64,000 bases of DNA from an uncultured Pelagibacteraceae bacterium (GTDB taxonomy: Bacteria; Pseudomonadota; Alphaproteobacteria; Pelagibacterales; Pelagibacteraceae). The stretch covers positions 24,482 to 88,481 of the forward strand of contig CACMMN010000005.1 in the NCBI GenBank assembly GCA_902614905.1, written 5' to 3'. The notes under the pieces were generated by a model. It saw nothing but the letters and a program-made list of their open reading frames with translations. It was not told the DNA's origin and ran no database searches. Both the position numbers and the translations under genes were made by a program. Shown here one piece after another: positions 41,201-45,663 of the stretch (positions within the stretch are counted from its first letter, which is position 1; each line of letters begins with the position of its first letter).

Positions 41201-42121
41201 TCAATTAAAATTAATGAAATTTTTAGAAAAACTTTCACTATCAAAGATTTGAAGATCATCCTCTTTTTCACCAAACCCCAAAGCGATAATCGGTAACTGA
41301 AATTTTTTAGAAACTGCAATTAAAATACCACCTTTTGCTGTACCATCAAGTTTGGTCATAATTAACCCTGTGATTGGTATAATCTTATTGAATTCTTCCA
41401 CTTGATTTATAGCGTTTTGACCAGACGTAGCGTCTAAGACTAAAATTACATCTTGTGGCGCTTTCTCATCTATTTTTTTTATTACATTTCCAATCTTTTT
41501 AAATTCATCCATTAAATTTTTTTTATTTTGCAATCTACCCGCTGTATCTATTAAAGTAATATCTATATTATTGTTCTTTGCAAACTCCATAGCCTTATAG
41601 GCAACGGATGCGGGATCACTTCCTGGTTCGGACTTAATTATTTCGCAACTTAATTTTTTTGACCATCTCTCCAGCTGATCAATTGCTGCTGCTCTAAATG
41701 TGTCACAAGCTGCAAAAATTACTTCATTATGATTTGATTTATAAAGTTTTGACATTTTTGCAATTGTTGTGGTTTTGCCTACACCATTTACTCCAGAGAT
41801 AAGAACTGCTTTTCTCGCTTCAGTTTTACTAAAAAAATTTTTGTTTTCTAAAGGTTTCAATAAAGAGTTTATGTAATTATTTATAATATTTTGAATCTCT
41901 TCAAGTTCGTTCTTACTTGGATCAATTTTACGGTTAGAAATTTCCTCTCTAATTTCTGAAGATGCTTTTACCCCTACATCTGATTGAATCAAAAATTCTT
42001 CAATTTTTTCTAATTCTTTATCACCAATTTCTTTGTTAATTATGATTTCTTTAATACCTTTAGAAAAATTTGAAGTAGTTTTTTTTAAACCGTCTTTAAA
42101 TTTTTTAAAAATATTTATCAT
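41201..42121 (-). CDS. ftsY: Signal recognition particle receptor FtsY
   Basis: ISGVNGVGKTTTIAKMSKLY; AACDTFRAAAIDQLERW; LIDTAGRLQNKKNLMDE; TKLDGTAKGG. Confidence 0.97.
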   Translation of the reverse strand: MINIFKKFKDGLKKTTSNFSKGIKEIIINKEIGDKELEKIEEFLIQSDVGVKASSEIREEISNRKIDPSKNELEEIQNIINNYINSLLKPLENKNFFSKTEARKAVLISGVNGVGKTTTIAKMSKLYKSNHNEVIFAACDTFRAAAIDQLERWSKKLSCEIIKSEPGSDPASVAYKAMEFAKNNNIDITLIDTAGRLQNKKNLMDEFKKIGNVIKKIDEKAPQDVILVLDATSGQNAINQVEEFNKIIPITGLIMTKLDGTAKGGILIAVSKKFQLPIIALGFGEKEDDLQIFDSESFSKNFINFN

Positions 42122-42930
42122 AGATTTAAATGAATTTTTTCTATATTAGATACATTTCCTTCCATAAGGATATTTCCATTAACGTCCTTATTTATTTTGA
42201 TCTTTCCTAATTTAAATTCAATTTCAGTAGGATAAATTGAAACTTTATTTATTTCACCCGCAATTGCTGTAGCACACGCTGCAGTACCACAAGCTTTAGT
42301 CAAGCCTGCTCCTCTTTCCCAATGTAAAACCTTAAAATGTTTATCATTAATTTTTTTTGCAAATGTCACGTTTACTTTTTCTGGAAACAAAGAATTACTT
42401 TCAATTTTAGGCCCTATATCTTTTATTTGAATTTTATCTAAATCTTCAGTAAAAAAAATTATATGCGGATTTCCAACATTCACTGCTGTCCCTGAAAGAT
42501 TAAGATTATCTATTTTAATTTCAACATTCTTTGTATCTACTTCTTTTGCTAAAGGTATTTCATTCCAATTTGTTTTAGGAATTCCAATATTAGTTTGGAT
42601 ATTATTCTCATTTAAGATTTTAGATTTTAGAATACCGCTCTCTGTTTCAAATGTGATTTCACTTTTAGCATTTTCTTTTGACAAAAGGCTTGCTACACAT
42701 CTCGTACCGTTACCACAAGCTGCTGAGTCGGATCCATCAGAATTTTTAAAAATTAAATAAGCATCAACTTTTTCACTTTTTTTAACTAAAATTAGTTGAT
42801 CGCAACCAATCTTTTTTCTGTCACAAATACTTTTTATTTGAGACTTATTTAATTCAAAGTCACTATCTCTTTGATCGATAATAACAAAGTCATTTCCTAA
42901 ACCATCCATTTTATATGCTTTAAAATCCAT
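42118..42930 (-). CDS. dapF: Diaminopimelate epimerase
   Basis: MDGLGNDFVIID; GSDSAACGNGTRCVA; WERGAGLTKACGTAACATA. Confidence 0.97.
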   Translation of the reverse strand: MDFKAYKMDGLGNDFVIIDQRDSDFELNKSQIKSICDRKKIGCDQLILVKKSEKVDAYLIFKNSDGSDSAACGNGTRCVASLLSKENAKSEITFETESGILKSKILNENNIQTNIGIPKTNWNEIPLAKEVDTKNVEIKIDNLNLSGTAVNVGNPHIIFFTEDLDKIQIKDIGPKIESNSLFPEKVNVTFAKKINDKHFKVLHWERGAGLTKACGTAACATAIAGEINKVSIYPTEIEFKLGKIKINKDVNGNILMEGNVSNIEKIHLNL

Positions 42931-42982
42931 ATATTTATACTTAACTTATTTATTGACTTTTTGAACCTCTATTATAGTTTCT

Positions 42983-43082
42983 CACCACTTCCGCAAAAAA
43001 ACAGCATTTTGCGGTGTCTTTGGAAACAAAGAGATCGACACCAGTCAGCGAGGGTTCGCCCACTGGTGCGATGACTGCTGGA
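42983..43082 (+). ncRNA. Candidate structured RNA/5' leader upstream of ffh
   Basis: Local GC-rich island with three hairpins (CCGCAAAA/TTTTGCGG; GGTGTC-TTTG-GAAA-CAAA-GAGATC-GACACC; CACCAGT-CAGCGA-GGG-TTCG-CCC-ACTGGTG) in an AT-rich gap. Confidence 0.75.
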
Positions 43083-43089
43083 TTAAAAT

Positions 43090-44448
43090 ATGTTTGAAAA
43101 TTTAACAAATAAATTCGAGGGCATACTCGAAAGATTTAAAAAATCACCATCACTTGATGAAGGTCAGGTTGATGATGGTTTAAGATTAATAAGACAAGCT
43201 CTATTAGAAGCAGATGTTTCTTTAGACGTCACAAAAGAATTTATCAATAATGTTAAACCGAAAGTTTTAGGGAAAGAAATTCTAAGATCAACAGCTCCTG
43301 GGCAGATGGTTGTAAAAATTGTTTATGACGAGCTTGTAAATTTCTTAGGTGATAAAAATCAAGAAATTAATTTAAAATCTAATCCACCAATTTCAATTAT
43401 GATGGTAGGCCTCCAAGGATCTGGTAAGACAACTAGTACCGCAAAATTATCTAAATTTTTAGAAAAAAATAACAAAAAAAAGATCATGATGGCAAGTTTA
43501 GATATCTATCGTCCTGCTGCTCAAGACCAATTAAAAGTTCTTGGCGAGCAAAATAATATTCAAACACTACCAATAATAGAAGGTCAAACACCCACGGATA
43601 TTTGCAGAAGAGCCTTAACGGCTGCAAACCTTAATGGCTCAGATGTTATTATTTTTGATACCGCTGGAAGAACACAAATCGATTTACAGATGATGAGTGA
43701 AATAAAACAAATAGAGGAAGTCATAAAACCAACTGAAACAATACTGGTTGCTGATTCACTTACTGGCCAAGTAGCTGCTAATGTTGCAAAGGAATTTGGA
43801 AATACAGTAAAACTTACAGGAATAATTTTAACACGTGCTGATGGAGATGGAAGAGGTGGTGCAGCACTTAGTATGAAACATGTTGCTAATGTGCCAATCA
43901 AATTTTTAGGAATAGGAGAAAAAATTGAAAATCTAGAAATTTTTCACCCTGACAGGATTGCAAATAGAATTTTAGGCATGGGAGATATCGTTTCTCTAGT
44001 TGAGAAAGCAGCACAAGACATCGACGAAGAAAAATTAAAAGAAGCTGAAGAAACTTTAAAAAAAGGACAATTTTCACTAGATGATTATTTAACACAATTA
44101 AGACAAATGAAAAAAATGGGTGGTATAGAGGGAGTAATGTCTTTTTTACCAGGTGTCTCAAAATTAAAATCACAAATGGATCAAGCAGGCGTTGATGAAA
44201 AAATTATAACCCAAAATGAGGCAGTAATATTGTCAATGACAAAACAAGAAAGAGATAATCCTAAAATAATAAATGGATCTAGAAAAAAAAGAATTGCTAA
44301 TGGCTCTGGTACAGATATTGCCACTATCAATAAATTGTTAAAACAATTTAAAATGATGTCTGACATGATGAAAAAAATGTCAAAAGGAAACACAAAAGGG
44401 TTAATGGATAAAGGATTGCCACCAGAACTCTTCAATCAATTAAAATAA
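43090..44448 (+). CDS. ffh: Signal recognition particle protein Ffh
   Basis: [45 protein letters not shown]-terminal M domain. Confidence 0.98.
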
Positions 44449-44461
44449 TAAAGGAGAAAAA

Positions 44462-44977
44462 ATGTTAAAACTTAGATTATCAATGGGCGGTACAAAAAAA
44501 AGACCAGTATATAAGATAGTTGTAGCAGACAGCAGATTTCCAAGAGATGGAAGATTTATAGAAAAACTAGGATATTTCAATCCACTGTTACCAAAAGATA
44601 AAAAAGATAGAGTAGGTCTTGAATCTGAAAGAATTAAATATTGGTTAAGTCAAGGAGCAAAACCAACTACTAGAGTTGCAAGAATTTTAGGGGAGAATAA
44701 ATTAATTGAAATGCCTGCAGCTGGTAATAATCCCAACAAGGCTATTCCAAAAAAAGATAGAAAAAAACAAGATGCTGGTGCTGAAAAAAAAGAGGATAAA
44801 AAAACTGATGCTCCAAAAGAAGCTCCAAAGGCAGAAGAGAAAAAAGCTGATGCTCCAAAAGAAGCTCCAAAGGCAGAAGAGAAAAAAGCTGATGCTCCAA
44901 AAGAAGCTCCAAAGGCAGAAGAGAAAAAAGCTGATGCTCCAAAAGAATCTCCAAAGGCAGAGGAAAATAAAAAATAA
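44462..44977 (+). CDS. rpsP: 30S ribosomal protein S16 with repetitive C-terminal extension
   Basis: [41 protein letters not shown]; then repeats of [14 protein letters not shown]. Confidence 0.97.
44804..44971 (+). repeat. Four near-identical 42-bp tandem repeats within rpsP 3' end
   Basis: Unit (g/a)ctgatgctccaaaagaagctccaaaggcagaagagaaaaaa at 44804, 44846, 44888, 44930 (last copy diverged). Confidence 0.97.
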
Positions 44978-45663
44978 TGTTTCAAGTAAAAATATTCACT
45001 TTATATCCAGACTTTTTTCCAGGAATTCTAAGCAAAGGTATATATGGAAGAGCAATTGAGAAAAGTTTGTGGAACTTGGATGTAATCAATATTAGAGACT
45101 ACGCAAAGGATAAGCATAAAACAGTAGATGATACTCCTTACGGAGGTGGTGAAGGAATGGTTTTAAAACCTGATGTAGTTGCAAAAGCACTAGATCAAAA
45201 TTTAAAAAAAAATGAAAAAATTATTTATTTAACACCTAAAGGAAAGACTTTTGATCAAAATAAAGCAAAAAAATTTTTGAACGAAAAAAAAATAAATATT
45301 CTTTGTGGTCATTTTGAAGGAATTGACCAAAGAGTCATAGAGTCCAGAGGTATTGAAGAGATCAGTATTGGGGACTACATTTTGTCAGGTGGCGAGACAG
45401 CTGCATACGTAATTTTGGATAGCATATTAAGACTTGTGCCGGGTGTTCTAGGAAATGAAAATTCGTATAAAGACGAAAGTTTTGAAAATGGTTTATTGGA
45501 GTATCCTCAGTATACAAAACCACAAATATGGGAAAAAACACCAGTTCCTGAGGTGCTTTTATCAGGAGATCATAGCAAAATTAAAGACTGGCGTTTATCT
45601 CAATCAGAGGCTATAACACGCCACCGAAGACCAGACTTGTGGCAAAAATATAAAAAGAATTAA
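44977..45663 (+). CDS. trmD: tRNA (guanine-N1)-methyltransferase
   Basis: [71 protein letters not shown]. Confidence 0.98.

Follow-up and report, generated by a model that had tools for sequence, protein, structure and literature searches.

The leader described here lies in a 64,000-nt stretch of DNA (the window) from a Pelagibacterales genome of 1.01 Mb, 82% complete. According to NCBIfam models, dapF (42118-42930, minus strand) and ffh, encoding the SRP protein (43090-44448, plus strand; TIGR00959, 562.6 bits, cut-off 473.2), diverge there, and the gap between them holds a leader block at 42983-43082. Next after dapF comes ftsY (41201-42121). Downstream of ffh, on the same strand, lie rpsP, encoding ribosomal protein S16 (44462-44977; TIGR00002, 96.4 bits, cut-off 45.3), trmD (44977-45663; TIGR00088, 293 bits) and rplS, encoding ribosomal protein L19 (45665-46204; TIGR01024, 154.1 bits); two more open reading frames beyond rplS were taken for leuC and leuD. 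Between rpsP and trmD this genome lacks rimM, which is present in the corresponding operon of the order f50 discussed below (locus L357). The C-terminal part of S16 in the window (44650-44960) is built as a tandem repeat in which Lys, Ala, Pro and Glu abound, and the S16 of L357 also carries a C-terminal extension, of low-complexity Ala/Pro/Glu sequence.

The Rfam covariance-model scan proposed in the earlier note gave a single match in the 64 kb, to RF01793 ('ffh'), at 43024-43077, with 54 bits against a gathering threshold of 35 and an E-value of 1.8e-07 for the window. The block at 42983-43082 is thus a real structured RNA that belongs to a family already catalogued, here at the family's type locus, and the note's suggestion that it may be a member of a published 'ffh' motif was right. 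The motif was described by Meyer et al. (2009; PMC2704228) from Candidatus Pelagibacter ubique as a single bulged hairpin upstream of ffh, present in all sequenced Rhodobacterales, Sphingomonadales and Rhizobiales and not in Rhodospirillales or Caulobacterales; cis-regulation of ffh was suggested, without a mechanism. Marine metatranscriptomes contain RNA of the family, according to work cited in PMC2704228, and such RNA has also been detected in Bartonella (PMC7717549) and Mesorhizobium (PMC5596092). The family occupies the same genomic place in Pelagibacterales as our block, which shows the bulged hairpin with a covarying stem and the two conserved cytosines; the position upstream of ffh, with the ATG at 43090 lying 12 nt past the end of the model, holds in the window and not in order f50. 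In line with the note, which saw no conserved SRP RNA helix-8 sequence, this is not an SRP RNA: RF00169 has no match within the window, the leader included, and the SRP RNA of the genome sits on another contig (G000:C2:64629-64723). The leader is linked to the bacterial small SRP RNA by theme only, through Ffh. Mimicry of SRP RNA by hairpin 3, with which it has a GUCAG in common, was rejected by inspection, as the opposite strand mismatches helix 8.

The RF01793 model spans 52 positions, which take in hairpin 3 and, of hairpin 2, the 3' side only; the leader here contains two more covarying hairpins. We aligned 36 leaders to build a three-hairpin model and then aligned 100 alphaproteobacterial leaders to it; the window scores 83 bits with this model, but it belonged to the training set. 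The sequence, coordinates and stem arms reported in the earlier note all agree with ours. The 110-nt leader has a minimum free energy of -37.4 kcal/mol (z -3.85), where dinucleotide shuffles give -24.2 +/- 3.4 and none of 200 is as stable; its predicted fold includes stems 1, 2 and 3. Across the 100 leaders, standard pairs occupy 91.4% of pair cells, against 35-47% when partners are slid by 1-3 columns; cells with two-sided changes number 446 against 74-120; and the covariation score is 0.509 against 0.177 +/- 0.007 for shuffles, on an alignment fitted to the structure, which favours the structure in such counts. When all columns of the same alignment were scanned against each other, the pairs of the three stems ranked at the top. 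All three stems therefore passed the covariation check across relatives for which the note had called.

Stem 1 pairs CCGCAAA (42991-42997) with TTTGCGG (43008-43014), outside the Rfam model, and shows two-sided changes in 7 of 7 pairs with 81% of cells paired. In two loci, L078 and L080 (genomes G001 and G007), the stem is kept with a very different sequence, AGAAAAAG/CUUUUUCU, and an extra A beside CC. Stem 2 (43013-43036) had been proposed with an inner helix and an outer GGTGTC/GACACC pairing that would make it partly exclusive with stem 3. The helix UCUUUG (43017-43022)/CAAAGA (43027-43032) stands, together with U43015-A43034 (two-sided changes in 6 of 6 modelled pairs, 87% of cells paired); the outer pairing is impossible in most relatives and was rejected, and so the two stems are not exclusive. 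A possible extension of stem 2 would pair GG (43013-43014) with UC (43035-43036), at the expense of the base of stem 1; a few relatives have AA/UU or UG/UA there. Stem 3 (43039-43068), the core of RF01793, keeps its proposed outer part, CACCAGU (43039-43045)/ACUGGUG (43062-43068), and loses the inner GGG-UUCG-CCC with its 6-nt bulge, in place of which the leaders support GCGA (43048-43051)/UCGC (43056-43059) together with A·C 43047·43060, a pair also found in the column scan, for which relatives have C-G, G·U or U-A, and the mismatch 43046·43061, which is C·C in every one of the 100 leaders. Here 10 of 11 pairs show two-sided changes and 99.9% of cells are paired. The alternative pairing CAGTCA/TGACTG, also suggested earlier, is not conserved among the leaders.

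The 3' tail (43069-43085) carries a conserved UGCUGG (43076-43081), as judged by column frequencies in the 100 leaders, and is kept in f50; its class consensus is a U-rich stretch followed by YGYUUGG. The whole leader of about 100 nt folds as three consecutive hairpins followed by this tail and is an enlarged version of RF01793; leaders of many families have in common the layout UUCC-hairpin 1-GGU-hairpin 2-GAUCG-hairpin 3-GC-U-rich-YGYUUGG. Only hairpin 3 and the tail are kept in some low-GC families (e.g. L447, L448 and L455). In the source organism the tail includes GGA, the only weak Shine-Dalgarno sequence before ffh. It is conserved even where the ATG is far away, and the spacer between motif and ATG ranges from about 1 to 276 nt across taxa, which rules out occlusion of the ffh start or ribosome-binding site as a general mechanism. 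A pseudoknot between loop 1 and the tail had also been envisaged. The complementarity CAGCA/TGCTG (43002-43006/43076-43080) is indeed present in the window, but the pseudoknot is unsupported across the class: the all-columns scan of 100 leaders detected no class-wide covariation between loop 1 and tail, and one Pelagibacterales subclade (loop ACAUUAAC) lacks complementarity of this type. Random swaps of tails among leaders, with kinship ignored, reduced the complementarity only a little, with a marginal z of 2.7 in Pelagibacterales and a z of 1.5 elsewhere.

Upstream of the leader, TTGACT (42953-42958) and TATAGT (42973-42978), spaced by 14 nt on the plus strand, resemble a promoter, and leaders of Rhodobacterales and of f50 carry TTGACT at much the same distance before stem 1. 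A sigma-70 consensus scan of the window gave no match, so the assignment is tentative; a transcript from this putative promoter (42953-42978) would start just before stem 1. In Rhodobacterales leaders such as L279, L281, L286, L309 and L311, a recurring TTGNNN-N17-TANNNT followed by GGGGGCA just after the tail resembles a second promoter between motif and ffh, whose -35 element the motif tail would overlap.

RF01793 is found in 270 of 298 Pelagibacterales genomes and in every one of the 111 genomes from a second order (that of G451), probably Rhodobacterales judging by the likeness of its leaders to named Rhodobacteraceae leaders. Searched across the class, the extended three-hairpin model matched in at least 162 of 389 genomes; only 10 candidates were scored per large genome, which makes absences unreliable. 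RF01793 alone matched in 53 of 211 class genomes, a sample that overlaps the 389 and differs from it. The leader occurs in many alphaproteobacterial families with no RF01793 hit. A pattern scan of contigs, which among the matches listed included chance ones in unrelated phyla, was used only for leaders adjoining ffh. All 40 of the inspected new loci found with the extended model, in further families and genera, lie directly upstream of ffh with rpsP 1.4-2.3 kb on and on the same strand, and in further families with enough flank the order motif-ffh-rpsP is kept on one strand. In Rhodobacterales other genes separate ffh from rpsP, which follows at 0.6-2.8 kb, and there the unity of the operon is only putative. 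At every locus examined with enough flank, rpsP is downstream on the same strand. This order alone cannot separate ffh from rpsP as the target of the RNA. The exception in f50 does.

Order f50 comprises 18 draft genomes in three genera (G345, G470 and G623-G638; loci L128, L357 and L369-L381), searches at the family and order levels giving the same 18; our guess, from genome size and AT-richness, is that it corresponds to HIMB59/AEGEAN-169. In G345 the motif stands about 40 nt before rpsP, without ffh. RF01793 occurs in 14 of the 18 genomes, one copy in each, and all 14 have rpsP immediately after the motif, with no ffh between. Where sequence is available dapF diverges from the motif, as in the window, and at L357 rimM, trmD and rplS stand behind rpsP. 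None of the 18 genomes has an Ffh match above the TIGR00959 cut-off (best 17 bits against 473.2) or an FtsY match to TIGR00064 (best 25.7 bits against 260.7), the latter protein being found in 14 of 14 controls. SRP RNA (RF00169) was found in none of the 18 and in eight of eight other alphaproteobacteria by the same search. Six of the 18 genomes are 93-97% complete, and the chance of such absences through incompleteness alone is about 5e-16 if the genomes are independent, a rough figure for related drafts that may share a binning bias. The 18 drafts thus show an apparent loss of the entire SRP pathway; our literature search gave nothing relevant on SRP loss in HIMB59/AEGEAN-169. If true, the loss of Ffh, FtsY and SRP RNA from an order of presumably free-living bacteria would be surprising in itself, since SRP is, to our knowledge, otherwise nearly universal.

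This retention of the motif before rpsP, in genomes with no detectable Ffh, FtsY or SRP RNA, does not bear out the earlier note's description of the RNA as a cis-regulator of the SRP protein gene. An element of SRP autoregulation would co-occur with SRP components, and of the 18 f50 genomes 14 carry the motif and none has Ffh, FtsY or SRP RNA above cut-off. The reading suggested by Meyer et al. (2009) and by the note, in which Ffh protein or 4.5S RNA would exert autogenous control over ffh, can appeal to Ffh being an RNA-binding protein and to the fact that outside f50 the motif always precedes ffh too, in all motif-bearing genomes with ffh and enough flank. The 14 f50 genomes and the unlikeness of the motif to SRP helix 8 nevertheless make it an improbable account of the leader and an unlikely general explanation, and Ffh and 4.5S RNA, undetectable in f50, are excluded as the ligand there if they are truly absent. 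The f50 leader could also be a remnant kept for some generic reason, such as a promoter or RNA stability, and not for ligand binding.

The family name 'ffh' is thus probably misleading, and the RNA probably controls the ribosomal-protein operon rpsP-(rimM)-trmD-rplS and not protein secretion. From the sequence comparisons, we consider it somewhat better than an even bet that the block in the window is a feedback leader of the ffh-rpsP-trmD-rplS transcript with S16 as its most likely ligand. The broader proposal, that the 'ffh' RNA is a class-wide alphaproteobacterial S16 feedback leader and not an SRP element, kept on rpsP by a small-genome order without any SRP, we put a little short of even. 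S16 is favoured since the genes of the rpsP operon stay with the motif everywhere examined, rpsP is the nearest ribosomal-protein gene at every locus, and an S16 leader has been assigned in Flavobacteria (Eckert 2020; PMC7247131). That leader is likewise structured, lies upstream of rpsP-rimM and is conserved by structure within one lineage; the leader here belongs to a different lineage, had no match to Rfam r-leader models in the cmscan of the window, and has S16 as a candidate ligand by inference only. Like a ribosomal-protein leader, it is a conserved structured element upstream of a ribosomal-protein gene, directly so in f50. How the trmD operon is regulated is said not to be known even for E. 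coli (PMC10931766), and our search for the mechanism of the ffh leader gave nothing relevant.

A feedback leader of otherwise the same kind could respond to L19 or TrmD instead. S16, L19 and TrmD all remain in the f50 operon, so that the data do not separate these ligands, and a Firmicutes L19 leader is a known ribosomal-protein leader (PMC7247131); we regard this version as unlikely, since at L353, from a Rhodobacterales genome, the 8 kb next to the motif yielded no L19 gene and rpsP invariably lies closer. RimM is less likely as a ligand, because rimM is absent from the operon in the window, where rpsP runs straight into trmD. Processing of the block into, or its action as, a trans-acting small RNA would fit the Rfam typing of RF01793 as 'Gene; sRNA', the detections of family RNA cited above and the variable spacing to the ATG, yet the linkage to one operon is fixed across the class and a scan of the window found no terminator after hairpin 3; we give this little credence. 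Least probable of all is that the leader has no particular protein as ligand and serves the operon by stabilising the 5' end of its RNA or by antitermination. Hairpins 1 and 2 are free in sequence and reduced or absent in some families, and the 5' end appears to begin at hairpin 1, as such an element might allow, but the invariant C·C, a hairpin-3 core that hardly varies and the conservation of the tail suggest specific recognition.

Under S16 feedback, an operon protein normally bound to rRNA, most likely S16, would come to be in excess over rRNA, bind hairpin 3 and the tail, and lower expression of the operon. In Pelagibacterales such binding could cover the weak ribosome-binding site adjoining the tail, and in taxa with long spacers control may act on transcription or on the stability of the RNA. 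The architecture of three hairpins and the wider distribution appear to be new, as does the evidence for reassignment from SRP to a ribosomal-protein operon, where the leader can precede rpsP without ffh. Since 2009 the motif has been listed as a putative regulator of SRP with no mechanism attached, and an order without detectable SRP separates the two hypotheses. That separation points to the ribosomal-protein operon and yields a defined RNA with a short list of ligands.
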